A program made the position numbers and the translations under genes. The notes beneath the pieces are model-generated. The model saw only the letters and a list, made by a program, of their open reading frames with translations, was not told the DNA's origin and did not search any database. Shown piece after piece: positions 2,634 to 32,395 of a DNA stretch of 40,253 bases; within the stretch, counting starts at the first letter, position 1, and every line of letters begins with the position of its first letter. This DNA is from a virus. The DNA lies in the IMG/VR virus record IMGVR_UViG_3300028392_000130, positions 1 through 40,253 of that record, one strand, 5' to 3'.

Positions 2634-2643
2634 AATTTACTCC

Positions 2644-9539: not shown

Positions 9540-10496
9540 TTAGGAAGCGATTGATGAACCTGATTCGATTCGGTATAGTGCTTCTTCGCGGTAGCGAGCA
9601 AAGCCAAGTACGCCGTACCAACCCATTGGGCGGTGACGCATCAACTTGTCAACTACTGGTCCGATTACTACATGTGGCTCTTCAGCAACTGCTTCTGCAA
9701 GTGCTTGCTGTCCAGCGATGATTGTACGGTAGTTACGTGCAGATGATGCACCGTCTGTAGCATTGTATAGACGTGGTGATTCAACAAAGAATGCACCTTC
9801 GTAGTTACCGATTTCTCCTGCCCAAATACGGTCTTGTGCAGCACCATATTGGTTAGGGAGCAACCAGCCTGCTGAGCCTGTTTCTGCACGAAGATCGTGT
9901 GAAACTTCTGGGTGGATACCAGCCCAGTATAGTGAGCCCTTGCGAGCAATAGACTTTCCAGCACGCAACTTTGCAACGGCCTTGCGGACGTTAGCAGAAG
10001 AAAGTGTTGCAGCAGCAGTAACTGTTGCTGTTGATGTTGCTGTAGAACCTGAGTAAATTACGTTAGTTCCACCGCGAAGTGCAGTCATTGCAACGCCGTC
10101 GATTGAATCGGCAAGGTTGAATGCGATGATGTTAGCAATTGCTGGATCTACGTCAGCAAGGCTGAATAGTTCCAAAGCACGTGTAACAAGTACTGAGTTA
10201 CCATACTCTGCAAGAGTGATGGTTACAGATGTTGGTGTAGATAATGCAACTGCATCTGGATCGACATCTTCTGTCAATGTTCCAGTTACTGCTGCTAGGT
10301 CAACGTACTTCTGTAGAACTACAGTTGATCCTGGGATTGCTTGCTTTGCTGGGCGCTTGTCTGCGACTGAACGAATAAGTGGTTCAGAACGGAGAGCGAA
10401 TTCCAAAAGACGATCATAAGCCTTTTGAACTAGACCAGCGCCACCAGAGGTACCTCCAAGAGAGGAAGAACCTGTTGTTGTGTAGACGTTTGCCAT
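9540..10496 (-). CDS. Major capsid protein (N4-gp56/HK97-fold type)
   Basis: 318 residues. An extended N-arm (SSLGGTSGGAGLVQKAYDRLLEFALR) is followed by RSVADKRPAKQAIPGSTVVLQKYVDL. Then come LTEDVDPDAVALSTPTSVTITLAEYGNSVLVT, LADSIDGVAMTALRGG, a P-domain with HPEVSHDLRAETG, and GWYGVLGFARYREEALYRIES at the end. Together these match the N4-gp56-like family of HK97-fold capsid subunits. It follows the scaffold gene and has a strong ribosome site (AAGGAGG) just before the start. It builds the shell around the DNA. The N-arm could be the target of a maturation protease. Confidence 0.9.
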   Translation of the reverse strand: MANVYTTTGSSSLGGTSGGAGLVQKAYDRLLEFALRSEPLIRSVADKRPAKQAIPGSTVVLQKYVDLAAVTGTLTEDVDPDAVALSTPTSVTITLAEYGNSVLVTRALELFSLADVDPAIANIIAFNLADSIDGVAMTALRGGTNVIYSGSTATSTATVTAAATLSSANVRKAVAKLRAGKSIARKGSLYWAGIHPEVSHDLRAETGSAGWLLPNQYGAAQDRIWAGEIGNYEGAFFVESPRLYNATDGASSARNYRTIIAGQQALAEAVAEEPHVVIGPVVDKLMRHRPMGWYGVLGFARYREEALYRIESGSSIAS

Positions 10497-10536: not shown

Positions 10537-11010
10537 TTACGAACGGAGAATATCTAATAGCGCGTCCATAGAATCCGCACTATCAATTCGCATATTTAAA
10601 TCTTCCATTCGGTCAGGGGTAAAAGCACTAGTTGTAACGGCATCTTGCTGACGCAAGGCTGCACGATCATTATCTGTTGCTTTTGGCTCTGGGGCATCTA
10701 CTTTAATTCCAAACAATTCTGCATTGTCATCGAGCCAGTTATTAACTGAATCTTCGCTGACATCATCAATGTCTTTAAGAATTAAGCGAGCCGCCTTAGC
10801 ATTTACGCCCTTCTTTTCTAGGACTTCTTTGACTGTACGCTCACGCTGCACCTTGGATAAACCCTCAAGTTGCTCTGTAAGTTCTTTGATACGTTTTTCA
10901 TCTGAACGTTTGGCTTTCCGCAACTTTTTAAGTAAATCGCTTCCATCCATCTGTACATCCAAGTCGGTATCTTGGTCGTCTTCGTCTTCATCCCAGTAGT
11001 TGTTGCTCAT
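10537..11010 (-). CDS. Scaffolding protein
   Basis: 157 residues. It starts very acidic (DEDEDDQDTDLDVQMD), then a charged coiled coil (residues about 24-70: LKKLRKAKRSDEKRIKELTEQLEGL), an AARLILKDIDDVSEDSVNNWLDDN helix block typical of actinophage scaffolds, and ends with a helix (MDALLDILRS). Acidic head, coiled coil and position directly upstream of the capsid gene agree with a capsid-assembly scaffold. It would be removed or cleaved during head maturation. Confidence 0.85.
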   Translation of the reverse strand: MSNNYWDEDEDDQDTDLDVQMDGSDLLKKLRKAKRSDEKRIKELTEQLEGLSKVQRERTVKEVLEKKGVNAKAARLILKDIDDVSEDSVNNWLDDNAELFGIKVDAPEPKATDNDRAALRQQDAVTTSAFTPDRMEDLNMRIDSADSMDALLDILRS

Positions 11011-12443: not shown

Positions 12444-13679
12444 TTAAATAGGCCCCAATCCAAATGTTTGAATCATAGTTCTCATGTCATTAGCCCGCAT
12501 CTGTTGATATGCCTGTGTTTTTTCAATTCCATCAGAATTCCAAATTACTTTATCAACTTCTTCTTTAGGAAGGATACTTGTACCACCAGCAATTTTTGAA
12601 AGAAAATTTTGTGGAACTTGATTTGCTTTAATCCCAAATGTTGTGGCATAAGATGAAATAGGAGCATCTAATAAATCTGAAACAGATTGTCCATTTTTAA
12701 TACCATCTGCTATAGCAGGGTAGTACTGTGCTGCTTTTACAGATATATTTTGCAAAGTATTTTGAAGTGCTTGTGAACTGCGAGTGGCATCAATAGCATC
12801 TTTATAAACTTTTTTATCATCAGCCGTAATATAGTTATCGGCATAGGCTGATCTTATTTTATTTATAGTTGTTCCAAATGCTCCAGCAGTTATTTTTTGA
12901 GTTTTTCCATCTGGAGTTGTAGCAGCATTAATTAAAGTATTTGCTTTATTAACAATATATTTATGAAATATACTTTCAATTGCGGTTTGACTTAAATTGT
13001 TAGCACCGCCAACACTTTGTTCTGCTTTAAGAACTTCATTAGAATATGCTTGAGCAGTTTTTTTATCAACTGGAGTATCAAACATATCCATAAATTTATT
13101 ATTAATATCAAGTTGTAAGTCTGTTGGATTAGATAATACTATTTTTTTTGCTGTTGTTGGAGTTCCAAAATATGATTGTGCTAATGTTGGAGCAGATATA
13201 AACTGTTGTATGCTATCTGTATAAGTTTTTCCAGATTGATCAGCATGTGCCATAAGTTTGCCAAGAGCAGCAAAATCTTCTGGTCTAAATGTTACAGCAT
13301 TGCCTTGACTCCTAATAAACGATTCAGCAGTAGCCCCAGCCAATGGATCGTTTTTAGAATATAATCCTTTAATTTTTGACATTTGGTAAAGAAGATTTGC
13401 TCTACCAGCATTATCTAAGGTACTATATGTTATTTGAGGAGAATCTGGTGTATATATAGGGGTTGTAAATCCTTGGCCAGTTTTAACCTTTATATCTAAT
13501 GGCAAACCACTAATGCTTTTTTTGCTAGCAGTATTCTTTGGAACTGGAGTAACATTTGTAGCAGAATCAGATGGCTTTAATGCCCCATTAGGTTTCTTAA
13601 CAGTTGGTGCTTTTTTAGCAGATTTGGATTCTGGTTTTCCATTAACCCCTATAAGAGGGATTTTACTTAGATCAGCCAT
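12444..13679 (-). CDS. Putative internal virion (ejection-type) protein A
   Basis: 411 residues. The N-terminus is a basic, Ser/Lys-rich, disordered stretch (about 1-70). Then a helical protein with YQMSKIKGLYSKNDPLAG, FAALGKLMAHADQSGKTYTDSIQQFI, SQTAIESIFHKYIVNKANTLINAA and LSKIAGGTSILPKEEVDKVIWNSDG. The segment near the end (TQAYQQMRANDMRTMIQTFG) is short and amphipathic. It shares a one-base stop/start overlap with the 1589-residue gene, so the three are made together. No known family was recognised. Confidence 0.6.
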   Translation of the reverse strand: MADLSKIPLIGVNGKPESKSAKKAPTVKKPNGALKPSDSATNVTPVPKNTASKKSISGLPLDIKVKTGQGFTTPIYTPDSPQITYSTLDNAGRANLLYQMSKIKGLYSKNDPLAGATAESFIRSQGNAVTFRPEDFAALGKLMAHADQSGKTYTDSIQQFISAPTLAQSYFGTPTTAKKIVLSNPTDLQLDINNKFMDMFDTPVDKKTAQAYSNEVLKAEQSVGGANNLSQTAIESIFHKYIVNKANTLINAATTPDGKTQKITAGAFGTTINKIRSAYADNYITADDKKVYKDAIDATRSSQALQNTLQNISVKAAQYYPAIADGIKNGQSVSDLLDAPISSYATTFGIKANQVPQNFLSKIAGGTSILPKEEVDKVIWNSDGIEKTQAYQQMRANDMRTMIQTFGLGPI

Positions 13680-16600
13680 TATTTCTCCAACTCTGATTTA
13701 AAATATGTATAAAATATTTTTTGGAAATCTGGATTACGTTTTAAAATATCTTGTGCCTGTTGAGCCAACCAGGTTCTTTGTGGTGCTGATGCTGCATTAT
13801 TTAATGTTGTCATTCCACTAGCCTTAATGGCTTGGTCTCGTAGATATAGATAATCACGAACACCAGTTAAAGCATCTGAATCAGCCAACTTTGGATCATA
13901 AGCAGCAGCCTTTAATTGGGCAATTACTCTATCATGGCGTCCAGTATCAAGCGTAAAAGATAGATCCATTTGTTGATATGCTTTAGACAAAGATTGGCTT
14001 GCTGATTTAAATTCAGCACTGTCCCAGCCTTCGGCAGCAGATCTAGTTCTAAGTCTATCTAAAGCAGCATAGTATCTAATTTGAGTAGCCTTTTGCATTA
14101 TTTCTTTAGGTGCCAACTTACTAAAAGAACCACGCTGTTGTTGATAGCGATAAAGTGCTTGAGATAGTTCTCCGTTAGGATAAAATAATCCATATACATC
14201 TGAATATTTATCTACAACTGATGGATCACGTTTAATCAAGTTATAAGTAGGTAGATTTGTAGGTTCTTGATTAGTTGTAGTATTGATAATAGCAAATATC
14301 TGTTCTGGACCATAAGTATCTAAGAAATCAGCATATGCTTTATTCTTATTTGATCCAGCATTCTTTTCAAGATTTTTAAAGTCTGACCATAAGGAAGTGG
14401 CTAAAACTGTATTTCCATCTTTGTTTTTTGCTAATGCTTCTGGGCGAAGTGAGAATGGAATAGGCATAAAGGCACCAAATATACCACGCCACATTGTAAA
14501 GTATTTAGCAAGGTTATATGAATCTTTAATCAATCGTTTTTGATCCATTGGATCATCAAGATTGTAATCACTACTATTAGCAAGGTAATTCATAGATGGA
14601 GCAAATGCTGATGCAAATGCTGGTTCTACACCAGATACTGAACTTAAAATTCTGCTCCAGTTAGAACTCAAAAGAGCAGAGTTTAATATTCCGCTATTTT
14701 TAAGATCTGGGGTTCCAAATGGAAATAATACTCTATATGCTTCTTCTTCTAATCCCGCAGGAAGTAATTTCATTGGGTTTTTATCTAAGGCATCAAGAAC
14801 TGCCGCAGAGATACTTACGCCTGGACCAAATCCTGGCATAACCCCACCATTACCAAGAGCAAAGTTAAACGATTGTGGAGTTGCAGATAATGCAAAAGGT
14901 CCACTAGTTCTAGGATGTCCGGACATTCCCTGTAATAGGTTTAATGCTGCTCCGGCAAAAGGCATAAAAAATTTACGCTCACCCGTTGTAGGATCTTTAA
15001 AGAAAAATCCTTGATTTGGATCATAGTAATCCTTGGCATCTGTCATAGTATATAATGCTGATGAATCAGCAGAAGATAACCAATCTAGTGCTTTAGTAGC
15101 CTTATAAATTTGAAGTGGGTTTTCTTTTGCTAAATTACCCCATGCATGAATAGTATCAAACCAGGCCTGACCAAATGGTGCTATAAGACGTAATTGATGG
15201 AACAATAAACGTTTTTTGCTAGCATCATAAAATAGATTTGATACAGTTTTATTTGCCACATTTGCAGCATATTGGTGTGCTTCGTCAAGGGTAATATTTC
15301 CATCCCCTGCAGCGTATTTCATTCTTTCCCATACTGGATGTGTTCTTCCAATATTACTTCCAGTAAATGGATTACGCAAAGGTCCTAATGATTTAGGGGC
15401 AGTTTCTCTAAGCGCAGCAAGTGCCTCTTTATCTAAAGCACCAACTACATTATGAATGGCATCCCAATATGACTGACGCCACTCTGGACCCATTGTTGAT
15501 AGTTTTTCTAATTTTATAGCGGTGTCAAAAAACTTATCAACTAATTGTGATACTGTACCTTTTTTATCACCAATTCTTTTAAATGATTGGGTAGGGACAG
15601 TCATTTTAACATTATCCCAATTGCCGGTATTTTCAAAAGCAGTTTTTATTTGTTTTGTAAATTCTGCTTGAGCATCATTTAAAGGTTTACGACCTTTGGA
15701 TATTTGAGAAGCATTTTTGATAGAATTTTCTGCAGTCTTGGCAGATCCAGGAATCTCTAATGTTTGATTACCAATTTTTACTTTTCCATCAGCAAGCAAT
15801 TTCTTTATAATGCTTGAGGATTTTCCACCCGCACCAGCAAGTTCTTCAATGCGAGCAAGAACAGATGCTTGTTGCCCATCAGTATTAATGCCTTTAAATA
15901 GATATTGCATTAAACCATTTTTTGTATTTAAAAATTGTTGAACATCTGTGCTTTTATTTTTTAAATAATAATCTAAAGTTTTGCGGCCTCCACCTTTTAG
16001 GAAGTAATCTACAGTTCTTCCTTCTTGTCCAGGTTTAGTTGCTAGCACTCTTTGAACAAATTCTGAATTGTGAAGAATACGAATTTGATTTGAAAATCCG
16101 TCCCACCATAGTGGATGTCCATAAACTTCTTTTTGGTATCCCAAGTTTCTTACAATTTTATTAATTTCGCCATCTCCGCTGGCACCGACTAGGGAGGTTC
16201 CCATAAAATCAACATATGGATTTATTAAATCCATTGCTTTTTCTTCTGATTTTAAATCTTCTGCAGTAGATACTGACTTGAATGAATCTCCATAGACATC
16301 ATTACGGACTTTATCAAATTTGTTTAATAATTCACGCCATTTAGGTCCATCATCTTTGCCCAAAAACATTGCTATGGCAGAAAGAGGATGGTTAAAGAAT
16401 GATGAGTGACCAGTAGCAAATACGCGAATTTGTTCTTCTGCAATATTTCTAGTTATGTATGCAGGCCGAACCATCACAGATTTTTTCCAAATACTAGTTC
16501 CTTGGGTCAAGGCATCATCAAGTTTTACCCTAAGATCACCAAATTTTTTAGCAGATTTAATAAAATTTGTTATTTCTTCACCAGAAGGAATATATACAAA

Positions 16601-18448
16601 TGAATTCAATAATTCAGAGTCTAAATGAGAACTATGTAATGTTACTGGTTTACCATTAGATACCATAAAAGTAATATCTGAGCCTTTGGCATGTTGTTCT
16701 GCCCAGTAGGCTTGAGTATTTTTGCGTTCAGTTTCAAATACTTTAGTTAGATTTTTGAATTTATCTAACTGCTCTCCAGTAAATCTATCAGCATATTTTG
16801 CATATACAGCATCAAACAATTTTGCAGAGGCAGTGTATCCGGAAACAGTAGGATCTGATGAAAGGGCAATAGTATCTAATAAAGTTTTTATTGTAGCATT
16901 ATCTAATTTAAGAGAACGTGCTACGCCATTAACTGTTTCTACTAACTTATCTTTATCAGAAATATGTACTAATGTTCCACCTTTATCTGGCACATAAGCA
17001 TGATATTTATTTGAAATACCTTGTAATAAATCATGTATTGGTTTTCTAGAAAGGGAACTTGCTTCCCATCCCTGCATTGTTTGGGTTGCAACAGGTGAGT
17101 TACCTTTTACAATTTTTGATAGTGCACGAGTTGTAGTTGTTCCAGTTTCAAGAACACCTTGCATAACTTTGCCATTTGCAATGAAGGGAGCAATTGCTTG
17201 AAGTGCTTCTTCTCTAGTTGTTGCTTTTGCAAGCGTCACTGCTTCTTCAACAGTTAAACGTCCCTTTGCAAGTTTTTGAATTTTTTGCCAGTCATCAATA
17301 TTGGCAATAGTATCAATAATATGAGTTCCAGCAGATCCACTTAAGAATGAAGCAATGCCATCATAATCAATATTTATTTTGCCATACTCATCTTTAATTT
17401 TTACCATATTCTGATAATTCTTAAGATATGCAGCAGTTTTTTGTTCTTTAGTAACAGCACTGGCACCATGAACTTGTTTCAATGAATTATCTACAGCCGT
17501 AACTGCTTCATCAAGTTGTGCCTTAAGTAATGACGCTTCTTTGGCAGATTTAGCGGCTTTAAGTCCAGTAGAACCTTCTGATGCTAATTGGGCTAATTTT
17601 GTTGCTTGTTTTAATTTTCCAAAAGCAAGTGTTGGATCTGTTGCCACACTTAATCCAATATCACCAATTGCTGTAATAACTCTAGCAGTAGAACTTTCTG
17701 GATGACCAAGTGTAAGTAAATATGCTGCTGGATCAAATACGCTATATGGACGGTAATAAGTTTTTCCGCCAACCTCAAAGGCTACTTTTGCTTGCTTCAT
17801 CTGTTCTTGACGAGCAGCAAATCCAGCACCAGTTTCTTCAGATGGGAAGAAGCCAGCACCCAAATCTACTTTACCACTTTGAACTAATTCTTTAGTTGCT
17901 TGAAATAATGTTGTTTGTCCAGGCAATGCTTCTAATCCTGTTGGAATAGTGTGTGTATAAAAACTTCCAAATCCACCTTTACCTGCAGTGTCATTTTGAT
18001 AGTCTTTGATACCTTGACGTATTGGAGCACTAACTACTTCAAGTCCAGTTTGTCCAGCAACTGCTAGTCCTCTTACAACACCTTTAATGCCAGACCAAAT
18101 TTGTCCAATTGGAGTGGAATTAAACTTATCTGTTGAAATGCGGTTGCTTTCTTTTTTAATATCCAATTGGCGTTGAACTTGAGTTTGCTTATCAATTGCT
18201 GTTAATGCATTAACTAATGGATTATTTGGCATTGCGCCAACTTTAGCAAGTCCACTTATAAGGCCAGCAGAAGCGGTTGGATTGGTTGCTAAAAGATTGC
18301 GAAGTTTATCGCCATCTGGTCCAGTTACTAATTGGGCAGCCTTAAGCGTATTTGAATAGTCGGCTTGCTGTTGAGTTAATTGCCTTTCCTCAACACCAAT
18401 AAGCGTAGGTAAACCATTGGCATCTTTGCCAACTCCTGGTAAACTCAT
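13679..18448 (-). CDS. Giant 1589-residue internal virion protein candidate
   Basis: By far the longest gene in the window. The N-terminal third has a Gly/Ala-rich amphipathic stretch (SGIKGVVRGLAVAGQTGLEV, about 119-138) and RVITAIGDIGLSVATDPTLAFGKLKQATK, like membrane-active segments of ejection proteins. The middle and C-terminal parts have TRNIAEEQIRVFATGHSSF, NVVGAL and an aromatic block HQLRLIAPFGQAWFDTIHAW, then MPFAGAALNLLQGMSG. No glycosidase, peptidase or polymerase signature was identified. Size, place between portal and scaffold, and lack of a tape measure fit a T7 gp16-like or N4-like DNA-ejection component; function is inferred. Confidence 0.65.
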   Translation of the reverse strand: MSLPGVGKDANGLPTLIGVEERQLTQQQADYSNTLKAAQLVTGPDGDKLRNLLATNPTASAGLISGLAKVGAMPNNPLVNALTAIDKQTQVQRQLDIKKESNRISTDKFNSTPIGQIWSGIKGVVRGLAVAGQTGLEVVSAPIRQGIKDYQNDTAGKGGFGSFYTHTIPTGLEALPGQTTLFQATKELVQSGKVDLGAGFFPSEETGAGFAARQEQMKQAKVAFEVGGKTYYRPYSVFDPAAYLLTLGHPESSTARVITAIGDIGLSVATDPTLAFGKLKQATKLAQLASEGSTGLKAAKSAKEASLLKAQLDEAVTAVDNSLKQVHGASAVTKEQKTAAYLKNYQNMVKIKDEYGKINIDYDGIASFLSGSAGTHIIDTIANIDDWQKIQKLAKGRLTVEEAVTLAKATTREEALQAIAPFIANGKVMQGVLETGTTTTRALSKIVKGNSPVATQTMQGWEASSLSRKPIHDLLQGISNKYHAYVPDKGGTLVHISDKDKLVETVNGVARSLKLDNATIKTLLDTIALSSDPTVSGYTASAKLFDAVYAKYADRFTGEQLDKFKNLTKVFETERKNTQAYWAEQHAKGSDITFMVSNGKPVTLHSSHLDSELLNSFVYIPSGEEITNFIKSAKKFGDLRVKLDDALTQGTSIWKKSVMVRPAYITRNIAEEQIRVFATGHSSFFNHPLSAIAMFLGKDDGPKWRELLNKFDKVRNDVYGDSFKSVSTAEDLKSEEKAMDLINPYVDFMGTSLVGASGDGEINKIVRNLGYQKEVYGHPLWWDGFSNQIRILHNSEFVQRVLATKPGQEGRTVDYFLKGGGRKTLDYYLKNKSTDVQQFLNTKNGLMQYLFKGINTDGQQASVLARIEELAGAGGKSSSIIKKLLADGKVKIGNQTLEIPGSAKTAENSIKNASQISKGRKPLNDAQAEFTKQIKTAFENTGNWDNVKMTVPTQSFKRIGDKKGTVSQLVDKFFDTAIKLEKLSTMGPEWRQSYWDAIHNVVGALDKEALAALRETAPKSLGPLRNPFTGSNIGRTHPVWERMKYAAGDGNITLDEAHQYAANVANKTVSNLFYDASKKRLLFHQLRLIAPFGQAWFDTIHAWGNLAKENPLQIYKATKALDWLSSADSSALYTMTDAKDYYDPNQGFFFKDPTTGERKFFMPFAGAALNLLQGMSGHPRTSGPFALSATPQSFNFALGNGGVMPGFGPGVSISAAVLDALDKNPMKLLPAGLEEEAYRVLFPFGTPDLKNSGILNSALLSSNWSRILSSVSGVEPAFASAFAPSMNYLANSSDYNLDDPMDQKRLIKDSYNLAKYFTMWRGIFGAFMPIPFSLRPEALAKNKDGNTVLATSLWSDFKNLEKNAGSNKNKAYADFLDTYGPEQIFAIINTTTNQEPTNLPTYNLIKRDPSVVDKYSDVYGLFYPNGELSQALYRYQQQRGSFSKLAPKEIMQKATQIRYYAALDRLRTRSAAEGWDSAEFKSASQSLSKAYQQMDLSFTLDTGRHDRVIAQLKAAAYDPKLADSDALTGVRDYLYLRDQAIKASGMTTLNNAASAPQRTWLAQQAQDILKRNPDFQKIFYTYFKSELEK

Positions 18449-18915
18449 ACACGCTCTTGTTTCGCAAGATTTTCAAACATATAACCTAAATCTCTATTAC
18501 TCGGATCCATCATATACATAGCCTGAACCATTTGAATAGCACGTTCTGGTTGAGGCACTGCCATGGCAGGTTGAGGGATAGCATCTGGTCCTATTGGTGA
18601 ACCATGAGCAAGGCCATCTGTAGGATCTGAGCCATGATTAATATCAGTTAAACCCGGAATAGGTGGAAGTTGTGGTGCGCCTTGTGAGGCTGCTGAAATA
18701 TTACTGGCAACCCCTGCTGTAGTATCTCCAGCCAAAGGCGCAGACTTTTCAGTATTAAAAGTTGATTGGCCCTGACCCCAAGGTTGACCTGGGATATACA
18801 TTGCTTTTTGAGTACTAGTAGCCATTTGACCATTGCTTCCATTTGGTGAAACATTCATAGGATTATATTGTGGGCCACCATGAGCGCCGCCGCTCCTGCC
18901 TTTGACTCCAGCCAT
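18445..18915 (-). CDS. Low-complexity head-cassette protein, unknown
   Basis: 156 residues. Gly/Asn/Pro/Ser/Gln-rich throughout: MAGVKGRSGGAHGGPQYNPM, then GQPWGQGQSTFNTEKSAPLAG, PGLTDINHGSDPTDGLAHGSP, and a short helical end (ERAIQMVQAMYMMDPSNRDLGYMFENLAKQ). The disordered body with a terminal helix is like minor head proteins that bind DNA or portal. Overlaps the giant gene by four bases (ATGA). Function unknown. Confidence 0.65.
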   Translation of the reverse strand: MAGVKGRSGGAHGGPQYNPMNVSPNGSNGQMATSTQKAMYIPGQPWGQGQSTFNTEKSAPLAGDTTAGVASNISAASQGAPQLPPIPGLTDINHGSDPTDGLAHGSPIGPDAIPQPAMAVPQPERAIQMVQAMYMMDPSNRDLGYMFENLAKQERV

Positions 18916-18923
18916 ATTACCTC

Positions 18924-19469
18924 CTACTTGGAATATTGTATTTTAGTTATATAAGGACCTGATGTAAATGCAGTAAGTTTTGCAGCAATTTCCATTGCTT
19001 TCATTGGTTTAGCACCAGCATGTAATGCTCCGATAGCATATGGTGAACCAGATCCTACTCCATATATGCCATCACTGCTTTTCATTACGGCTAAATCTTG
19101 ATCTACATCAAATATTTCGCCATTACAAGCAATTAAAAATTGAAACCTTGCACCTGAATCTTTATCATGTGATTCATCAAAATTATATCCATTTGCTTTG
19201 AGTGCTTCACGCAGAGAAGGCATAACTTTTGATATCATAAAATGATAAACATTTTTTTTATCTGTTGCAGTTAATGATGGTGGTTTCCATAAATGTTGGG
19301 CAATATCGCATGGACTAACCTCTCCACTGCCACCTATAATAAATGAGCCAACCTCAGTTAACTTTTCCATTTCTGGATGTGTATAAATTCTTCCACTATC
19401 ATCAGTTACCCTATTGTCAGCAATTAGGGTACAACTGCCATCGTGCTGTATACCAATAATTGTTGTCAT
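18924..19469 (-). CDS. HslV/proteasome-like Ntn-hydrolase peptidase in the head cassette
   Basis: 181 residues, starting MTTIIGIQHDGSCTLIADNRV. Removing Met exposes Thr2, matching the N-terminal nucleophile of HslV and proteasome beta subunits. D18 (in ADNRV) and K36 (in PEMEKLTEV) line up with the two other active-site residues (D17 and K33 of HslV) allowing a two-residue insertion. IIGGSGEVS, FQFLIACNGEIF, then GVGSGSPYAIGALHAG (137-152) and AMEIAAKLTAF match the family's conserved GSG-P-A stretch and following helix. Length equals HslV (about 175). It lies between portal and the 156-residue protein, where other phages place their prohead protease; none of the usual types is seen. Role as capsid maturation protease is inference. 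Confidence 0.85.
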   Translation of the reverse strand: MTTIIGIQHDGSCTLIADNRVTDDSGRIYTHPEMEKLTEVGSFIIGGSGEVSPCDIAQHLWKPPSLTATDKKNVYHFMISKVMPSLREALKANGYNFDESHDKDSGARFQFLIACNGEIFDVDQDLAVMKSSDGIYGVGSGSPYAIGALHAGAKPMKAMEIAAKLTAFTSGPYITKIQYSK

Positions 19470-19483
19470 TGTCCCCTACTTAA

Positions 19484-21283
19484 TTATTTGCTTCTGGTAA
19501 CTGTTCTTGCTGCAGATGTGGAATTTCCACTACCTGACATTGTAGAAAATAAACTTTGTACTGTTGGTGGTTGTGCTTGTATCTGAGGTGGCACTTGATT
19601 TAGTGGCGCACCTTGTGCTTCTGGAGGAGTAGAGCCTCCTACTGGAGCACCAGCGGGAACAGGGGACGTTTGCTCAACCGACGGCGTGGCCCCAGCAGGA
19701 GGAACCTGTGGCGCGAATATGTCCCCAATGGAATCTTCGATAGATTTTCCACCTTGACGCGCTCTGATAACCTCAGCAACCTTACGAATGATATCACTTG
19801 GGTCTCCCCCTTGTGCTGCCATTTGTGGTATTGCTTGGGTGTATGATTGAAGTGATGCAATAAGCGCATTGCGCATATCTTCAACTTCAATTTTTTCTTG
19901 TTCTTGAGTTACATTTACATTGAATGGTAATTCGCGCATAGCCATATCTTTAGATATTAACTTGCCACCAAGTGCTTGCAGCATAAAAATAAGTCCCTGT
20001 GCTGGATTAAGACCAGCCAACATTCCATAACGAACATCAGCAGAGTAATCCCCATTGATGTCTTTGCTTGGAGTGTATGTAATTACGTATGGTGATCCAG
20101 CATCTACACCGCGAATTGTTTTTTCAAAATTGAAATAGGTTTCATCCATTTCAAAACATAGAGATATTACATCGCGCAATGCTGCAGCAAAGATGGCTTG
20201 AGATGATTTAACTTGAGTATCAAATGCTCCCATGAGAGCCTGCACACCTTGCCCAGTAACAACAGATGCGTTGATATTTCCAGTACGTCCTTCTGGATAA
20301 CGTGCTCCAACGCGGAGTTCTTGGTTAAGTAAACCTTGTTCTGTAAATGCACCTTGTGGTAGATTAAGATCTACGCGGCGTACACCTTGTGGGTTTGCTG
20401 TACGTATAACAGCATCTCCGCCAAGTTGAAGTTCTTGAACATCTTGTGGAAGAACAATTGGAGCCTGTACTGATTTTTCAGCGGCTTCCATGGCAAGCAT
20501 AGCAAAACGATTGCGAAGCAATTGAATTCCAAGTACATCATCAAACTGGCCACGCATCTCAGAGTCAATAGAGGGACGTTTAGCAATTACAACCATCATT
20601 TTGCCCAATGGGTTTTTGGCTTGAGAAAGAACTAGATTATGGCGTGATGGGACATAGACTATTGATTGATCTTTGTCATAGTAACGTATAATTTCAATTT
20701 GGCTATTAAGGTCCTGCTTGTAACCATCGGAACCTAAAAGTTGCCCACTATATTCAGGAAACTGAGTTACTAATTCGCCTAGGGTCATTATATAACGCTT
20801 AGCGTATGCTACACAACGGCCATACCGATCAAACTCTGGGTAGGCATGACGTGGATTTTCAATACGAATTCTAGGTAAACCAGATTCATCATCTATTTCA
20901 ACAATGAATGGGATAAAGCCATAAGTTATATAATAGTCTGCACCTGTGTACATATGAACTGAAAGATCTGAATGCACAAAATAATTTGCTGCAATACGTG
21001 TGCGCTTATCAGCAAACTTACGCGCTTTATCATTTACAGCATTTGCTGCAGAGCAGTTGATTGCTGGCAATGGTGCCATTACTTCTGATAAATCTCGCGC
21101 TACTACATCAATAAAGTTTGCTACTACGTTAGCGTCTACACCATCTGGAAAAAAATCTGGGTATACTTCTGAAATTTTACCTTGACGAACAGCAAGAACA
21201 TCGCCTGCCTTGGCGTCTCTTTCATTGGCACGGTAGCGTAGGGCTGCCACCCTAGTAACTACTTGATCCATTGTTAATGCCAT
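19484..21283 (-). CDS. Portal protein
   Basis: 599 residues. The body contains VVARDLSEVMAPLP, a clip/stem region with LLRNRFAMLAMEAAEKSVQAPIVLP, the crown-side NINASVVTGQGVQALMGAFDTQVKSSQ, and a Pro/Gln/Ala-rich C-terminal tail (last about 80 residues). Length, helix pattern and position immediately after the large terminase agree with the ring-shaped DNA entry channel at the capsid vertex. Its gene is separated from terminase by 7 bases and starts with a good site. The Pro-rich tail may extend into the head. Confidence 0.88.
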   Translation of the reverse strand: MALTMDQVVTRVAALRYRANERDAKAGDVLAVRQGKISEVYPDFFPDGVDANVVANFIDVVARDLSEVMAPLPAINCSAANAVNDKARKFADKRTRIAANYFVHSDLSVHMYTGADYYITYGFIPFIVEIDDESGLPRIRIENPRHAYPEFDRYGRCVAYAKRYIMTLGELVTQFPEYSGQLLGSDGYKQDLNSQIEIIRYYDKDQSIVYVPSRHNLVLSQAKNPLGKMMVVIAKRPSIDSEMRGQFDDVLGIQLLRNRFAMLAMEAAEKSVQAPIVLPQDVQELQLGGDAVIRTANPQGVRRVDLNLPQGAFTEQGLLNQELRVGARYPEGRTGNINASVVTGQGVQALMGAFDTQVKSSQAIFAAALRDVISLCFEMDETYFNFEKTIRGVDAGSPYVITYTPSKDINGDYSADVRYGMLAGLNPAQGLIFMLQALGGKLISKDMAMRELPFNVNVTQEQEKIEVEDMRNALIASLQSYTQAIPQMAAQGGDPSDIIRKVAEVIRARQGGKSIEDSIGDIFAPQVPPAGATPSVEQTSPVPAGAPVGGSTPPEAQGAPLNQVPPQIQAQPPTVQSLFSTMSGSGNSTSAARTVTRSK

Positions 21284-21290
21284 TGTTGTC

Positions 21291-23147
21291 CTATCCGTAA
21301 GTTTCTACCCATTGCTCTGCAAAGGCTTCATCTAATTGTATGGATCCACGTTGTGCTTTTTGAGCACGGGTAGCCCATCTATTATTTTGGTATTGATTTA
21401 CTCTTGAATTTTGTTGCATTAATTCTCGTATGCGGATGATGGCAAACCATAAAGCCATAACTGTATCCGTTGGGTTTTTAGTATCTGGCTTCCAAGTGAT
21501 TAGTTGCTGGACTAAGGTCTTGAGACCCTCAGAACCTTCATTGCTTGGAAGTTCGATTATATTGTTATCTTGAAAACGACCATCTCTGATTGTTCCAAAT
21601 AACGAAGCCATAGAGGCTACACCATAAGATGTATCCCATTTATTTTTGCCTGTAAAGTGTGACTCAAGTCTTGTACCATATTGGGCTAGCCAGTTACGTA
21701 AATCTTCATCTAGGGCATAAGCCTTTTGATGTGCGTTAATTTCAATACGTAATTCTTGAGGTCTATACTTGTCAACCCATTCTTCAATCAAGGCTCTAAT
21801 CTTCATTGGGTTAGGTTCTGTCATATTGACTGCATCTAAAACATATATTTTACTATCAGCGCGGTTGTAAGACAAAATTACCGCACCGGTGTTTCCAGTC
21901 ATTGCCGGGTCGAGACCCATAACTGTGTATGCAGACTCAACATGCTTTGGATGTCCAGGGACCCCAGGTTTGAGTGGCCCTCTTTTTCGCATGCCATTAA
22001 CGGAACCTGCGATTGCGGCTGGGGCAAAGATTGAATCTTCTTGAACGTCTTCCTGCTGGTAAACCATAGCCCAGACTGACGGAGCAACTTCAGACCTTCT
22101 TGTAAAGAGCGATGGTCCATCCCACTTGGTGTATAAGCCGTTTTCGTCTGGCTCATCTATATCTCCTTCTGGCCGATCTGTCTTTGGCCATAAGGCTTTC
22201 CAGTTTACAGGCTTCTCATCAAATTCTAATACTGCTGGTTGGGCAAAATATGTAAAGGGGCTTTTGCCACCAGTCCATTGTGACCCATCTCGAATCATTT
22301 TATAAAGGTCAATAGGTGCGACACGTGTTCCTACAATAAGCAGTTTTCCGTGCCGCCCTAAGCGCGTGATAACTTCCTTTTGAAGCCATTCGATTTGCTT
22401 CTCCCACTCATGGGCGTTTGAGTTCATCACAACGTCATCTAGGATAATCAAATCGGCACGTGCGCCATAGATTTGAGATCCGAATCCGAGAGCCTGAACC
22501 GTTGGGTCCTTCTCGCCAGAGTCGCGTCCTGTGCCTAGATAAATCATGTCTGCTGACCACTGAGTAGCGTCTTGCTTATAACCACCAGAAGGGCCGAAGG
22601 CCACTTGCAGTTTGGTGTATGCTGGGTGGCTTAACCTTGTCTTGATTGCCCCTAGAAACTTGCGGGCCATACCCTGGGTCTTAGAGACGATAATGACTCG
22701 GGCATTGGGGTTAGTTACAATTTTGTAGGTCACATAGTTCGTGGTGACGACTGTTGACTTGGCATGTTCTGGGGGTACGTTGATAAGGACACGGTTTAGG
22801 GCGCCTTGCTCAAAAGTCATAGAGGGGTGAATCCACCGAGGCTCACGGCCTTCTATAAGGTCGAGCCAGTCAAGGTGATGATCAAAAAGTTTAGTATCTA
22901 GGAACTGCTCACAGAAATCGGGGTAGGATATGTCCTTGAGTTCGGCTAAGTCTTGTTGGATTCCTTTACCTGCAAGGCGGGCTTTCTCAGCCTTCTCTTT
23001 AAACTCGGGGTCCTGGAAGGACCATTGACGGTAGGATGACTCTGTTCGTCCTACATTTTCCATAGCCAGTTTAATGGATGAGCCCTGCTCAAGGAGGGCG
23101 AGAACCTTCTTTTGGGAGTCTTCTTTGGATAGGTTCTTACTTGCCAA
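21291..23147 (-). CDS. terL: Terminase large subunit with an N-terminal small-terminase-like domain
   Basis: 618 residues. The first about 60 (KVLALLEQGSSIKLAMENVGRTESSYRQWSFQDPEF, read as two helix blocks) look like a helix-turn-helix DNA-binding domain of the small terminase type. The ATPase has a deviant Walker A, PPEHAKST (125-132), Walker B LIILDDVV (233-240) and coupling motif GTRVAP (273-278). The RNase H-like nuclease has D413 in VMGLDPAMTG, E469 in LRIEI, and D561 in TDTVMALWFA. It packages DNA and cuts concatemers. The start is TTG with AGGGG seven to ten bases upstream. No separate small terminase gene was found. First gene of the late operon. Confidence 0.92.
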   Translation of the reverse strand: MASKNLSKEDSQKKVLALLEQGSSIKLAMENVGRTESSYRQWSFQDPEFKEKAEKARLAGKGIQQDLAELKDISYPDFCEQFLDTKLFDHHLDWLDLIEGREPRWIHPSMTFEQGALNRVLINVPPEHAKSTVVTTNYVTYKIVTNPNARVIIVSKTQGMARKFLGAIKTRLSHPAYTKLQVAFGPSGGYKQDATQWSADMIYLGTGRDSGEKDPTVQALGFGSQIYGARADLIILDDVVMNSNAHEWEKQIEWLQKEVITRLGRHGKLLIVGTRVAPIDLYKMIRDGSQWTGGKSPFTYFAQPAVLEFDEKPVNWKALWPKTDRPEGDIDEPDENGLYTKWDGPSLFTRRSEVAPSVWAMVYQQEDVQEDSIFAPAAIAGSVNGMRKRGPLKPGVPGHPKHVESAYTVMGLDPAMTGNTGAVILSYNRADSKIYVLDAVNMTEPNPMKIRALIEEWVDKYRPQELRIEINAHQKAYALDEDLRNWLAQYGTRLESHFTGKNKWDTSYGVASMASLFGTIRDGRFQDNNIIELPSNEGSEGLKTLVQQLITWKPDTKNPTDTVMALWFAIIRIRELMQQNSRVNQYQNNRWATRAQKAQRGSIQLDEAFAEQWVETYG

Positions 23148-23684
23148 TGTGTGCCCCTAATAACGAATATAACGGTTCCTGTTAACGGGCATAGATATCC
23201 CATTATATATATTATTATATATAATTATATATTATATAGGAGACTGTGTAGCCTTAGCGGAGCAGGCTCCGTATATGTATTTCTATACATATAAGATAAC
23301 CTGTTCAAAACTGAAAACCGAACGGTTTTCTATGATATATTTTAGAAATCGGGTAAATAAGGGCTTTTATTATACATAAGGGGGGCTATATGTCTATATA
23401 ACAGAAAGTTTTAGGGTGAGACATAAATCATTCTCGGGGGCCCCATTTAATAACCCTACCGCCAAATAATCCTAGTAAAGAGATCATCCATCCATCCATC
23501 TATTCATCCATCTATCATTAAATAATTCATTCCGATCTTTCCGGACGAGAGCATAATTAGTTTAAGTTTCAACAATTCCAAAGTGCTATTCGGCACGCGA
23601 CTATCCACCCGACCCTATTCCCCCCGCATTAAATCCAAAATTAAAATTCAATATCTCCTGGAATTGTCGATAAATTGACTAGGT

Positions 23685-23699
23685 GTATGAAATTCATAC
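23685..23699. promoter_or_regulatory. Palindromic site 1 (GTATGAAATTCATAC)
   Basis: First of ten exact copies of a 15-bp palindrome, 7-bp half-sites GTATGAA and TTCATAC around one central base. Preceded by CTAGGT, as at site 2. It lies 139 bases before the first plus-strand gene. Sites of this kind usually bind a dimeric repressor or activator; the protein is unknown. Confidence 0.75.
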
Positions 23700-23780
23700 G
23701 GCGAAAATAAATTGCGACACGTCTTGCTTTTGACCCCGACCTATGGGACAATTTTCTTGGTGGAATAAATTCCGCTAGGT

Positions 23781-23795
23781 GTATGAAATTCATAC
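23781..23795. promoter_or_regulatory. Palindromic site 2
   Basis: Exact GTATGAAATTCATAC, with the same upstream CTAGGT as site 1, making the pair a 96-bp spaced duplicate. It ends 28 bases before the ATG at 23824, so bound protein would overlap the start region of that gene. Confidence 0.75.
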
Positions 23796-23823
23796 ACTTC
23801 CCAAAATGAAATGAGAAAAAAAA

Positions 23824-24498
23824 ATGGCAACAACAACCGCTAAAAAATCTCCAAAGGTAATCCCCGCAAAGGCTCCAAAGATCAAGGTGGCAAAGATCAA
23901 AGCTTCTCCAGTAGTAATCGAAGCAGATCAAGAAATTGTTGATCTTTACTCTGGGCTAATAAATCAACAAGGTGAAATCCAGTTCATCATCGAACTGGCG
24001 CACCGCTTGGCTAGTGGCTCAACATCTGTCCGTATCATCCAAGCATCCATTGACCTAGCGTCGGAGATGGGAACCGCCCCTACGATCAAGAAAGGACACG
24101 CGCAATATATTTTGACCGCGTCCAAAATTCTCGACACGCAAGAGGGTGCCGATACTTGGCCAGTTGCCAAGTTACTTAAACTTGCGACCCGACTACAACG
24201 CCATGCGGGGGTCGAGAATATCGAAACCGCGTTACAAGTAACGGACAACATCTCGGAACTCAATGAAGCGGTGCCAGTAATAAACACCAAGAAGCGTGGC
24301 ACCAAAGGCACCAAGATTAAAGAAGTCGCAACCGCGCCAAAATTGCGGACAGTGGATGAAGTCTTGGCAGTAACTCTCGCGGGTCTGCTCTCGATCTCTA
24401 AAAATCCACGCGACTTAAAGTCTGCCGATCTAAAAACGCTAAAAGCAGTTGCCGATCTAGTGTTGGTAATCGTGGGTAATTCCGCACCTAAGAAATAA
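23824..24498 (+). CDS. 224-residue Lys/Ala-rich protein, first gene of the plus block; possible regulator
   Basis: The N-terminal about 32 residues are a basic, Pro/Lys/Ala-rich arm (MATTTAKKSPKVIPAKAPKI) of the kind that wraps DNA. The central part is helical (DLYSGLINQQGEIQFIIELAHRLASG, TIKKGHAQYILTASKIL, KLLKLATRLQRHAGVENI). The C-terminus has RTVDEVLAVTLAGLLSI and SADLKTLKAVADLVLVIVG. No known domain was recognised. The start has only a weak ribosome site after an A-rich leader. It has its own terminator and two palindromic sites directly upstream, so it is a candidate for the palindrome-binding protein or a gene under its control; neither is shown. Confidence 0.75.
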   Translation: MATTTAKKSPKVIPAKAPKIKVAKIKASPVVIEADQEIVDLYSGLINQQGEIQFIIELAHRLASGSTSVRIIQASIDLASEMGTAPTIKKGHAQYILTASKILDTQEGADTWPVAKLLKLATRLQRHAGVENIETALQVTDNISELNEAVPVINTKKRGTKGTKIKEVATAPKLRTVDEVLAVTLAGLLSISKNPRDLKSADLKTLKAVADLVLVIVGNSAPKK

Positions 24499-25959: not shown

Positions 25960-27153
25960 ATGGAAACTGACGAAGTCCTTAACTGCGTAAGTTGCAATAA
26001 GGATGCAAGCCTAATAACTAGCGACGGCAACACTGTATGCCACGATTGTGTGCGTGTATGTGAGCGTTGCAATACGATAGGTTCAGAAAGTTGGGACTTT
26101 CGTACAGTAGATGACGCAATATGGTGCGAGCCATGTGCTGAGAGTTACTCTAACTACTGTGAAAGTTGTGAGGTGAACCACACTGGCGACAACTACTATG
26201 CTGAGGATCGTAGCGGTACATGGTGTGAGGATTGCTGGAATGATACTCTCACCTACTGTGAGGGTTGTAGTTGCTATTACTACAATCCTTGTGATTGTTA
26301 TGATGAGAATATTGATATTCATGACTACTCATATACACCCGATCTAGAGTTCCACTCTAATAATGATAACCCAACTAGCCCCGCAGATCATCTCTACTTT
26401 GGTATAGAGATCGAAGTCGAAGCCCCTAGAGGGGATTGGGGTATTCGCAAACAAGCAGCCGCATTTGCTACTGCTAACTTAGAAAGTTACGACCTAGCAT
26501 ACCTTAAGTCTGACGGCTCACTCGAGTGCGGATTTGAAATCGTTACTCACCCAATGACCCACGACTATTTCAAGAACTCTGCCGATAAGTATTGGGAAGT
26601 TCTTGAGCACCTGCGTAGCCATTACCGCATGCGGTCTTGGTCTGCTGGTACTACTGGCCTTCATATCCATATATCTAGGGCAGGATTTAACAATGGTGCT
26701 CACTCACACCGCTTCTTACAATTAGTCTACAACAATGAGGAATTCTATTCCAAGATCGCTGGCCGTACTTCAGGCCGTTGGGCTAAGTTCGATGATGTCC
26801 ACCAATGGGACAGCACCAAAGAGAAGTCTGTTAAATCATTCAAGCGTAAGTTAGCCCCTTATCGGGCCAATACTTCTGATCGGTACTCTGCCGTCAATAC
26901 TCTCAACCGCAATACATTTGAGATGAGAATATTCAGGAGTACCTTAAATGGAAATACAGTTAAGTCTGCGCTTGACTTGGCGCACGCCAGTGTCGAGTAC
27001 ACGCGCAGTCTTACTGTGAACCAAGTAGTCAATGGTGCGCTAGAGCGTATGAATTTCATACAGTTCATATACAACAATAGCGACACCTACTCGCACTTAA
27101 TATCCCGCATGGACAGATTGTTCATCGGAGCCAACAACCAAGATACAGAATAG
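25960..27153 (+). CDS. Cys-rich amidoligase (glutamate-cysteine-ligase-like, Amidoligase_2 type)
   Basis: 397 residues. The first about 115 form a chain of CxxC knuckles (C9/C12, C27/C30, C34/C37, C56/C59, C67/C70, C89/C92, C100/C103, and a CDC end). The ligase domain (about 145-330) has the family signatures: FGIEIEVEAPR with E150 and E152, KSDGSLECGFEIVTHP (183-198), GLHIHIS (233-239), RYSAVNTLNR and EMRIFRSTLN (321-330). Enzymes of this fold use ATP to join a carboxyl to an amine. It is followed after 10 bases by a class II glutamine amidotransferase, which could supply ammonia or a related amine. Palindromic site 6 is upstream, and site 7 lies inside the gene. Substrate unknown. Confidence 0.88.
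   Translation: METDEVLNCVSCNKDASLITSDGNTVCHDCVRVCERCNTIGSESWDFRTVDDAIWCEPCAESYSNYCESCEVNHTGDNYYAEDRSGTWCEDCWNDTLTYCEGCSCYYYNPCDCYDENIDIHDYSYTPDLEFHSNNDNPTSPADHLYFGIEIEVEAPRGDWGIRKQAAAFATANLESYDLAYLKSDGSLECGFEIVTHPMTHDYFKNSADKYWEVLEHLRSHYRMRSWSAGTTGLHIHISRAGFNNGAHSHRFLQLVYNNEEFYSKIAGRTSGRWAKFDDVHQWDSTKEKSVKSFKRKLAPYRANTSDRYSAVNTLNRNTFEMRIFRSTLNGNTVKSALDLAHASVEYTRSLTVNQVVNGALERMNFIQFIYNNSDTYSHLISRMDRLFIGANNQDTE
27047..27061. promoter_or_regulatory. Palindromic site 7, inverted, inside the amidoligase gene
   Basis: GTATGAATTTCATAC, the reverse complement of the usual orientation, within codons for RMNFIQ (363-368) of the amidoligase. Occurrence inside coding DNA shows the motif is kept for its DNA sequence, or arose by chance with unusual luck; such intragenic sites can act as roadblocks. 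Confidence 0.65.
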
Positions 27154-27163
27154 GAGATATACT

Positions 27164-28030
27164 ATGTGCTTACTCGCAGTATGTGAGCCAAACTCTACAC
27201 CCAAGCGTAAAGAACTTGAGTGTGCTTCATGTAATAACCCACACGGATTTGGGTATGCTATCATAGCAGATGGCGAGATCATTACTGGTCGCGGTATGTC
27301 TGCTAAGAAAATCGTATCCGAGTTCCTATCCCTTCGTAAGCAATACCCTAGTGGATACGCTATGTTCCATGCTAGATACGCTACGCATGGGGTTAAGAAT
27401 GAGGATAACTGCCATCCGTTTAAGGTAGGAGGGTCGACACAAACCTATCTAGCGCACAATGGTATTCTCGATGTCGAGATCCACGCAACGGATAAGCGTA
27501 GCGATACGCGTGTATTCGCTGAGGATGTGTTACCCGCCATGGGTGGCGTGGCCTCATTAGATAATGACAATGTGTGGAAGATCCTTAGCAAGTGGGCCAC
27601 TGGTAGCAAGATTGCTGTACTTACCTTAGACCCGAGTGCTAAAGATGTCTGCTATATCATCAACGAATCGTCAGGCCATTGGGATAATAATGGCATATGG
27701 TGGAGCAACTCTACCTACAAAGAGGATAGTTGGTCGCGCTATATCGGTATGCCTAGCGTAAAGAGCGATGATAGTGTATCTGTAATGGACGGCGAAACAG
27801 AATGTCCGGGCTGTGGTGCGTTCCTCTTAGAGGATAGTAATCCATACTATTGCGAATTCTGTATGACCTGCTATGATTGCTTCGGGATCTATGAGCAAGA
27901 TTGTATGTGCTATATGCCCGAGCGAGATGAGCATGCTCTCAAGGTAAGGAATGCTGGCAACTATCAGGGTTACTTTGACTTCGACAAAGAATACCAACAA
28001 GCCCACGAATACCACAACTACTACAAGTAA
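27164..28030 (+). CDS. Class II glutamine amidotransferase with a zinc-ribbon C-terminus
   Basis: 288 residues, starting MCLLAV: Cys2 becomes the N-terminal nucleophile. HGFGYAII (27-34), FHARYATHG with R71, the LAHNGIL loop with N99-G100, and SDT (113-115) match the Ntn glutaminase domain of the PurF/GlmS class. There is no phosphoribosyl or isomerase domain, so it is a free-standing glutaminase. The C-terminus (about 214-250) has ECPGCG, CEFCMTCYDC and CMC, a zinc-binding tail. It is expected to release ammonia from glutamine for a partner, most simply the amidoligase just upstream with which it shares the Cys-rich addition. Ribosome site AGGAGA. Confidence 0.88.
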   Translation: MCLLAVCEPNSTPKRKELECASCNNPHGFGYAIIADGEIITGRGMSAKKIVSEFLSLRKQYPSGYAMFHARYATHGVKNEDNCHPFKVGGSTQTYLAHNGILDVEIHATDKRSDTRVFAEDVLPAMGGVASLDNDNVWKILSKWATGSKIAVLTLDPSAKDVCYIINESSGHWDNNGIWWSNSTYKEDSWSRYIGMPSVKSDDSVSVMDGETECPGCGAFLLEDSNPYYCEFCMTCYDCFGIYEQDCMCYMPERDEHALKVRNAGNYQGYFDFDKEYQQAHEYHNYYK

Positions 28031-28587: not shown

Positions 28588-28704
28588 TTGTCATTTATCA
28601 AACTATCGGTGGGCTTATTCTGCTTAGGAATACTAGGAGGGGCTAGCCCACCAACTTTACTACTACTACTACTAATAATATATATATGGGGGGTGTTAAT
28701 ATGA
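28588..28704 (+). CDS. 38-residue membrane peptide upstream of WhiB, tentative
   Basis: TTG start at 28588 immediately after a stop. The peptide MSFIKLSVGLFCLGILGG ... LLLLLLIIYIWGVLI has a membrane segment encoded partly by a TAC/TAA microsatellite (28655-28684). The stop TGA overlaps the WhiB start ATG (ATGA), and GGGGGGT inside it can serve WhiB. Alternatively this is just an untranslated leader; no clear ribosome site precedes the TTG. Confidence 0.35.
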   Translation: MSFIKLSVGLFCLGILGGASPPTLLLLLLIIYIWGVLI

Positions 28705-29087
28705 CGCGTGAAAGAGATGAATTCATAAGCGGTAAACGCAGAACGGAGGCATACATTGTTGGCGATTGTTCAGGCCATGAGAATCCTGATCTATGGTTTC
28801 CGGAAGGTATGGGGCCAGGTGGCAAGACAGATGAACAAATAAAAGAAAGAGCGAGAGAAGTTAATACTGCGCTGGCCATATGTAACTCCTGCTCAAAGAA
28901 AGATGAATGCTTAACCGAAGGCATGCGACCCGAGAATATTGTACATGGTATATGGGGTGGCATGCTTGCTGGTGAACGAATACTAAACGCTGGAATAAAC
29001 TATGGGGACTACAGCCAGTGGAACCCTCATACTCTAGCCTTAGATTTTCATAGGAGAGTATTACCATACTTAAGGAGTAGTGTATGA
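28701..29087 (+). CDS. WhiB-family Fe-S transcription regulator
   Basis: 128 residues. Four Cys as in the family (C23, C61, C64, C70; C-x2-C-x5-C) hold a 4Fe-4S cluster, followed by the conserved HGIWGGM turn (82-88). The start chosen, ATG 28701, overlaps the preceding TGA; GGGGGGT lies seven bases upstream. WhiB proteins are confined to actinobacteria and their phages and bind host sigma factor to change promoter choice, so this is a strong host indicator and a likely agent of host control. A tail of about 30 residues follows the turn. It overlaps the next gene by four bases. Confidence 0.92.
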   Translation: MTRERDEFISGKRRTEAYIVGDCSGHENPDLWFPEGMGPGGKTDEQIKERAREVNTALAICNSCSKKDECLTEGMRPENIVHGIWGGMLAGERILNAGINYGDYSQWNPHTLALDFHRRVLPYLRSSV

Positions 29088-32047: not shown

Positions 32048-32395
32048 TCACTCTCCACTTTCTGTATCATTTATTAGGTTCTTCAATTCTTCGTCGATGT
32101 TGGCCATGTTTTGATCTACTACAATATCTTGAATGATATTTTTCATTGCTCCTGGATTAGTTTCGGCTGCATACAATATGCCGTATGTGCTTTCGCATAC
32201 CTTCATTACATCCTCAGGATAATTTGCTAATTCATAAATGCGTCGAAGCAATGAACCTATCATGAGTGAGTATCCATTTGGCAATATTAGTTTAGGATCA
32301 AACTCTTCCTCATTCTCTTCAAGTAGATGATCTGCTGCCTCAAAAATGTTTTGAAATTCTTCATTACATATTGGACATGGTGGAATCTTATTCAT
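32048..32395 (-). CDS. 115-residue protein with an N-terminal CxxC-H motif, unknown
   Basis: It opens MNKIPPCPICNEEFQNIFEAADHLLEE..., with CPIC (7-10) and His 23, like a C2H2-type finger that lacks a second His nearby. The rest is a helical acidic domain (LRRIYELANYPEDVMKVCESTYG). The start overlaps the primase stop by eight bases. Possibly a replication accessory protein. Confidence 0.7.
   Translation of the reverse strand: MNKIPPCPICNEEFQNIFEAADHLLEENEEEFDPKLILPNGYSLMIGSLLRRIYELANYPEDVMKVCESTYGILYAAETNPGAMKNIIQDIVVDQNMANIDEELKNLINDTESGE

Follow-up and report, generated by a model that had tools for sequence, protein, structure and literature searches.

Gene organization around the peptidase gene

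The DNA analyzed here, hereafter the window, is a viral sequence of 40,253 nucleotides (IMG/VR record IMGVR_UViG_3300028392_000130, positions 1 to 40,253). The only ORF in the interval 18924-19469 is read on the minus strand, from 19469 to 18924. It belongs to a minus-strand run in the order terminase large subunit (TerL), portal, peptidase, a 156-aa ORF, a 1589-aa ORF, ORFs of 411 and 436 aa, a scaffold-like ORF of 157 aa, and the major capsid protein. The features referred to below are as follows.

23396-23369, minus strand: promoter-like site upstream of TerL (consensus match only, from a scan that did no better than on shuffled sequences)
21291..23147, minus strand: terminase large subunit, first gene of the run (phrog_38, E 3.1e-65)
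19484..21283, minus strand: portal protein, 599 aa, directly upstream of the peptidase (phrog_104, E 1.3e-26)
18924..19469, minus strand: proteasome/HslV-type N-terminal threonine peptidase, 181 aa (PHROG, sequence, AlphaFold, fold comparison)
18445..18915, minus strand: 156-aa ORF rich in Gly, Pro and Gln, after the peptidase
13679..18448, minus strand: 1589-aa late protein, family not recognized
10537..11010, minus strand: scaffold-like protein, 157 aa (phrog_7813, E 1.1e-29; weak phrog_648 scaffold match)
9540..10496, minus strand: major capsid protein, 318 aa (phrog_1357, E 1.5e-78; Phage_capsid_3)
28686..29087, plus strand: WhiB-like regulator, an actinophage marker (PF02467, E 3.6e-8)
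36230-36733: CHAP/NlpC ORF, endolysin-like (Pfam)

The peptidase gene starts 14 bases past the portal stop and is followed by the next gene after 8 bases; a stretch resembling a ribosome-binding site precedes both the peptidase and the 156-aa ORF. Promoter and terminator scans of 18400-23900 gave results no better than those for shuffled sequence. Because the gene lies inside the TerL-portal-capsid transcription unit, we infer that it is expressed late. An initial annotation had placed it within a head-assembly cassette, between portal and head genes. TerL and portal are indeed upstream and scaffold and capsid downstream, but the arrangement is looser than described, as the latter two genes are 8-9 kb away. 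The 1589-aa protein, judging from its place and size, is possibly an internal or ejected virion protein. Pfam scans of the 36 window ORFs revealed no S14, S49, S78 or S80 protease, in agreement with the initial annotation; the only peptidase-like matches were a weak Proteasome match and the CHAP/NlpC ORF. Nor did these scans reveal an HslU/AAA+ unfoldase among the 36 ORFs.

The closest cultured relatives of the window phage, E7 (OX376640) and F5 (OX376641), infect Ca. Planktophila (PMC10202952). Given this relationship and the WhiB-like gene, the window phage is most likely an actinophage, infecting freshwater actinobacteria. Of 20 records searched for WhiB, 10 contain it, among them those of L004-L007, L102 and L104; many of the rest are fragmentary. 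Elsewhere in the window, a plus-strand ORF matching Amidoligase_2 (25960-27153, E 2.5e-7) is followed by one resembling class-II glutamine amidotransferases (27164-28030; GATase_6 E 4.5e-5, below cut-off), i.e., a possible amide-ligase pair in an actinophage. The primase is apparently split, with a CHC2 zinc finger and a Toprim domain on overlapping minus-strand ORFs (32388-33011 and 32860-33234).

Family, fold and active site of the peptidase

The product of the gene had been annotated as a proteasome/HslV-like threonine peptidase on the basis of its N-terminal TT, D18, K36 and a GSGSPYA stretch, and our analyses of the ORF uphold this assignment. The profile phrog_1040 ('peptidase HslV family') matches residues 1-176 with E 5.3e-29, and the nearest solved protein by sequence is BPH (5ovs, E 1.5e-5). 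The Pfam Proteasome match, at E 0.0012, falls under the family cut-off and is only suggestive. HslV proper was considered and rejected, with scores of 21.7 bits against a cut-off of 157.75 for TIGR03692, and of 20.1 bits against 137 for NF003964.

The AlphaFold model, a monomer built with 44 natural sequences, has a mean pLDDT of 92.4 and a pTM of 0.89. It displays a four-layer alpha-beta-beta-alpha fold, with helices at 51-60 and 70-92, and is similar to BPH, HslV, 20S beta and Anbu at Z 16-18. All 50 structural matches among those listed are chains of proteasome, HslV, BPH or Anbu. BPH and HslV occupy the top ranks in Foldseek, with BPH first, and VIA-align superposes 163 residues of the model on BPH (Z 18.0, rmsd 2.6, 28% identity); HslV and 20S beta, each at Z 17.3, are tied with it. 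Among viral structure models, the top matches come from phages, and the first of these proteins is named HslV peptidase subunit. By sequence and predicted fold, the window protein is a proteasome-like threonine peptidase, the similarity being far above chance.

The protein begins Met-Thr-Thr and has no propeptide; that is, a threonine directly follows the start Met. Asp18 corresponds to Asp17, Lys36 to Lys33, and Thr2 to Thr1 once the Met has been removed. Proteasome-like Ntn peptidases with Thr/Ser1, Asp17 and Lys33 are of the MEROPS T1 type. Thr2, Asp18 and Lys36 are invariant in all 96 distinct sequences compared (the window peptidase and 95 relatives), as are Gly139 and Gly141 of the GSGSPYA stretch (139-145); Ser140 is found in 88 of the 96, and 84 have a glycine at the position of Gly47, which we aligned with the oxyanion glycine. 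We divided the sequences into subfamilies by assigning each to its nearest representative, outgroup phage sequences included. The position of proteasome Asp166 is Thr in 60 of 78 members of subfamily A, and Asp in 9/9 of B and 7/8 of C, so catalysis may differ in subfamily A. A loop at 93-108, positioned from the secondary structure of the model, is net negative in every one of the 96 sequences; this putative pore loop (residues 101-110 at pLDDT 68) is the least confident part of the model. The median dN/dS is 0.09 for the peptidase (573 usable pairs) and 0.11 for the portal (491 pairs), and we conclude that the peptidase is under purifying selection.

Among known systems, BPH (5ovs, 5ovt, 5ovu) is the nearest solved relative, and likewise has an acidic pore loop and is not known to have an unfoldase. 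This loop is elongated in BPH, which is described as inert in the published assays (PMC5777263). BPH is, however, a cellular protein with a proven ring, whereas a ring is a prediction for the window peptidase, and HslV and 20S beta are tied with BPH within Z 1. The phage homologs in PHROG 1040 have the fold and catalytic residues in common with the window peptidase; in the named phages that we opened they are mostly in early, lysis or accessory regions, whereas the window gene, from an actinophage of 40 kb, fills a late position following the portal. PPH, AAH and CPH resemble it in being group-I, phage-borne and without a recognized AAA+ partner. Fuchs, Alva and Lupas (2021, PMC8665760) report neither a function nor an AAA+ partner for any of the three, and no AAH-encoding actinophages; PPH is given as having about 140 residues and no helix H2. 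Membership in PPH was rejected for the window peptidase, which has 181 aa and both helices. A jumbo phage is reported to have three separate prohead protease genes in addition to two HslV-like ones (PMC7823757). In the open-access literature searched, we found no paper on the function of the slot gene or on a proteasome-type head protease, and no report of a refilled slot behind the portal. The paper on Sulfitobacter phage phiGT1 mentions none of peptidase, protease, HslV, Ntn or proteasome. Phage proteasome homologs are thus already known; the unusual part is the fixed, refilled slot in an actinophage lineage.

Occupancy of the slot behind the portal gene

The initial annotation had proposed a search for the same gene at the same place in relatives, and by its outcome the gene is tied to this head in part. 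Among portal relatives (the best 80 of 513, 75-92% identical, near-copies included; three contigs end too early), the peptidase gene lies directly behind the portal in 75 of the 77 with room downstream. Phages E7 and F5 share the head cassette of the window phage (80-82% identity for the capsid, 75-79% for the portal), and their slot too is occupied by a homolog, though one of another subfamily, only 40-41% identical to the window peptidase; the main text of the paper on these phages does not name it (PMC10202952). Relative to the window capsid, those of F5 (L083 29782-30981) and E7 (L084 from 17567) have about 80 extra residues inserted in their C-terminal third.

The gene is, however, missing from the remaining two portal relatives, L102 and L104, and from four Streptomyces podophages. 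In L102 and L104 the slot is empty, and an ORF similar in size and composition to the 156-aa ORF begins within 23 and 9 bases of the portal, respectively. Both are closer to the window than E7 and F5 are, with TerL 88-89%, portal 81%, and capsid 82% and 87% identical. No phrog_1040 match was found anywhere in these records (39.5 and 39.1 kb, i.e., about the size of E7 and F5, with completeness uncertified; many IMG/VR records are fragments), in a search that does find the E7 and F5 genes. The Streptomyces phages (the Beephvirinae Manuel, Treat and Dennebes, and Abafar, which is unclassified in its record and was grouped with them by gene order) have the same type of TerL, portal and capsid, and a scaffold-like gene before the capsid; at the position of the 157-aa ORF, Dennebes has an annotated scaffolding protein. 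The peptidase gene is absent from all four of these whole genomes. Their capsids are 53-55% and their portals 42-44% identical to those of the window (41-45% in the comparison of Beephvirinae portals). A search for S78 or ClpP-type proteases in L102, L104, the four Streptomyces phages, E7 and F5 found none, and the control genomes were positive.

The head proteins of phages with and without the peptidase were also compared. The window, L102 and L104 capsids have coinciding N-termini, and the N-terminal end is only 8 residues shorter in the Streptomyces capsids; the alignment with these peptidase-less relatives revealed no N-terminal propeptide or delta-domain-like segment in the window capsid. 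The scaffold is 61-65% identical in phages without the peptidase. The large late protein behind the portal (window 13679-18448; L083 21470-26605; L104 6017-11113) exists in two types, recognized in 40 of the 88 loci searched (22 and 18 loci). The head cassette is the same for both types, and each is represented among phages that carry the peptidase and among phages that lack it; both occur with peptidase subfamilies A and B.

Exchange of the peptidase gene

The peptidase in the slot does not follow the genes around it. L091 and L092 have portals 91-92% identical to that of the window, with a peptidase only 57% identical; in L091, TerL is 98%, the scaffold 90% and the 156-aa ORF 72% identical. 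Conversely, the L002 peptidase is 88% and its portal 75% identical. Over 1830 pairs from 61 slot loci, the median identity is 0.81 for the portal and 0.59 for the peptidase (Spearman 0.35). By nearest subfamily, the 75 slot genes divide into 56 of A, 11 of C, 7 of B and 1 of D; proteins of the last three subfamilies share 33-46% identity with the window peptidase. In a tree of 46 peptidases (30 from the slot, 16 from elsewhere), the slot label needs 6 changes (4-6 across bootstraps); the well-supported branches force at least 2 changes between slot and elsewhere, with long branches as a caveat. These sequence comparisons show that the slot behind the portal has been refilled by exchange with other phages, and indicate that the ancestry of the peptidase is uncoupled from that of the portal and capsid.

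Relatives of the peptidase in other contexts

Relatives of the window peptidase itself (the best 80 of 399, each with at least 666 bases upstream) adjoin this type of portal in 16 cases and do not in the other 64. Those located away from this portal, in other phages, include proteins 66-79% identical to the window peptidase. In L063 the neighbor is an endolysin gene, and in L004 the peptidase gene is isolated on the opposite strand, surrounded by genes for RecT, a DNA methyltransferase and an exonuclease. The records behind L004 and L006 contain remote relatives of the capsid (36%) and portal (25%), 13 kb from the peptidase, and that behind L028 a capsid 28% identical, 15 kb away. Phages with 36% capsid and 25% portal identity carry a peptidase that is 77-80% identical. 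Phages whose heads differ markedly are thus served by peptidases 73-80% identical to that of the window. One 4.5-kb phage contig, L010, has two peptidase homologs, at 667-1206 (plus strand) and 2261-2812 (minus strand).

We also surveyed 11 named phages outside the lineage, chosen (not at random) from 217 phage records with a match; our own profile confirms the homologs in 8 of the named phages, with E below 1e-10. In 10 of the 11, the homolog is outside the head cassette. It lies upstream of the terminase in Microbacterium phage LeeroyJenkins, which also has an annotated capsid maturation protease; beside WhiB in DSL-LC01; just before the holin genes in D'Alembert, AG11 and Snoke; near PhoH and lysozyme or endolysin genes in phAPEC8 and Shewanella phage 1/4; on the opposite strand within the tail module in IME346; and by RNA repair genes in RpAliso. 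The homolog in RHEph10 is outside the head cassette as well. The one head-cassette case is Sinorhizobium phage phiM5, in which the homolog is between TerL and portal. The GenBank notes for phiM5 flag the portal, scaffold, capsid and many other proteins as particle-detected; the peptidase is not so flagged.

Cellular relatives were sought in two contig scans. Of the 128 candidate stretches from the scan with alignment A1, none was confirmed, and the single-protein scan confirmed 1 of 24, namely L180 6380-7009, 29% identical. L180 is a 21-kb contig of a gammaproteobacterial MAG with a run of small ORFs, from which it looks like phage DNA.

Discussion

Homology, a conserved active site, the predicted fold, the place of the gene, purifying selection, exchange, and absence from sisters with the same head together form the basis on which its function can be considered. 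We favor, with moderate confidence, a late-made, exchangeable and probably ring-forming threonine peptidase that has no dedicated unfoldase, is not the maturation protease, and acts in the infected cell. The enzyme would be produced late, with the TerL-portal-capsid unit, and host methionine aminopeptidase would remove the Met and expose Thr1. The subunits would probably assemble into a closed homo-oligomeric ring resembling that of BPH or HslV, in which the active sites would face the interior and an acidic loop would be located at the pore. With no recognized phage unfoldase, such a ring would digest peptides, or proteins that are unfolded or specially presented, and within the infected cell its likeliest substrates would be host or regulatory proteins. 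The enzyme would thus be an exchangeable accessory that this lineage has almost always kept. Host shut-off, counter-defense, amino-acid recycling and assembly clean-up are candidate jobs. A self-compartmented peptidase acting on host proteins had been the second proposal of the initial annotation; it fits the data better than the first, a maturation protease, with both the rings and the host targets standing as predictions. Against the favored reading, the near-fixed slot and the independent position of the phiM5 homolog, between the TerL and portal genes, suggest that the job may be connected with head assembly or its timing. Also against it are the Thr at the Asp166 position in most of subfamily A, with which catalysis may differ, and the inertness of BPH in the published assays.

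It is conceivable, if speculative, that the portal slot is a dedicated exchange site for interchangeable mini-proteasomes, made late and tuned to different targets of host defense or shut-off, with one function kept across the four subfamilies. A related reading, in which the enzyme is specifically a counter-defense or host-takeover peptidase with a variable target, would explain why divergent subfamilies have refilled the slot, and would agree with the presence of four of them at one slot, with the lower median identity of the peptidase than of the portal over the 1830 pairs, and with the occurrence of homologs beside accessory genes in diverse phages. Nevertheless, neither a host target nor a linked anti-defense gene was identified, and the low dN/dS offers no hint that amino acids change rapidly within subfamilies; we regard this reading as unlikely.

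Rather improbable, too, is a non-essential helper of late assembly, which would improve yield by clearing surplus or released scaffold or misfolded head proteins, or by trimming the 1589-aa protein. The tight packing in a late gene run, the near-fixation of the slot, the acidic pore loop and the lack of an unfoldase among the scanned ORFs are in its favor. However, phages without the peptidase still have a scaffold that is 61-65% identical, both types of large protein are found with and without it, and other phages have homologs in early, lysis or DNA-metabolism regions. Obligate processing of the 1589-aa protein was rejected, since both of its types occur without the peptidase.

That the enzyme is a prohead maturation protease cutting the capsid or scaffold, which would be an unusual fold for that job, we consider very improbable. 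This idea, the first proposal of the initial annotation, draws on the place of the gene between portal and head genes, kept in 75 of 77 relatives, on the lack of S14, S49, S78 or S80 proteases among the 36 ORFs, and on the second head-cassette occurrence in phiM5. It does not accord with the natural absences: L102, L104 and the four Beephvirinae-type phages, with capsids 53-87% identical, lack both the gene and any S78 or ClpP-type protease. Nor does it accord with capsid N-termini that nearly coincide, within 8 residues, and include no propeptide or delta domain, or with a peptidase ancestry uncoupled from portal and capsid, as where 77-80% identical peptidases accompany a capsid 36% and a portal 25% identical. 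On these three grounds we reject it as the leading view. Equally improbable is a specific peptide-bond transferase, like connectase, or an inactive relative, rather than a general protease, which the Thr at the Asp166 position in subfamily A, the inertness of BPH in assays (PMC5777263) and the presence of a ligase in the family (PMC8665760) would suit, but against which stand the Thr1, Asp17 and Lys33 equivalents, invariant in all 96 sequences.

Location within a head operon, as this lineage shows, is not enough to identify a peptidase as a maturation protease. Proteasome homologs occur widely in phages, without known function, and this lineage gives a handle on them: a cultured host, Ca. Planktophila LanE-43, with phages E7 and F5; a fixed slot; natural sisters without the peptidase; and four subfamilies in one slot.
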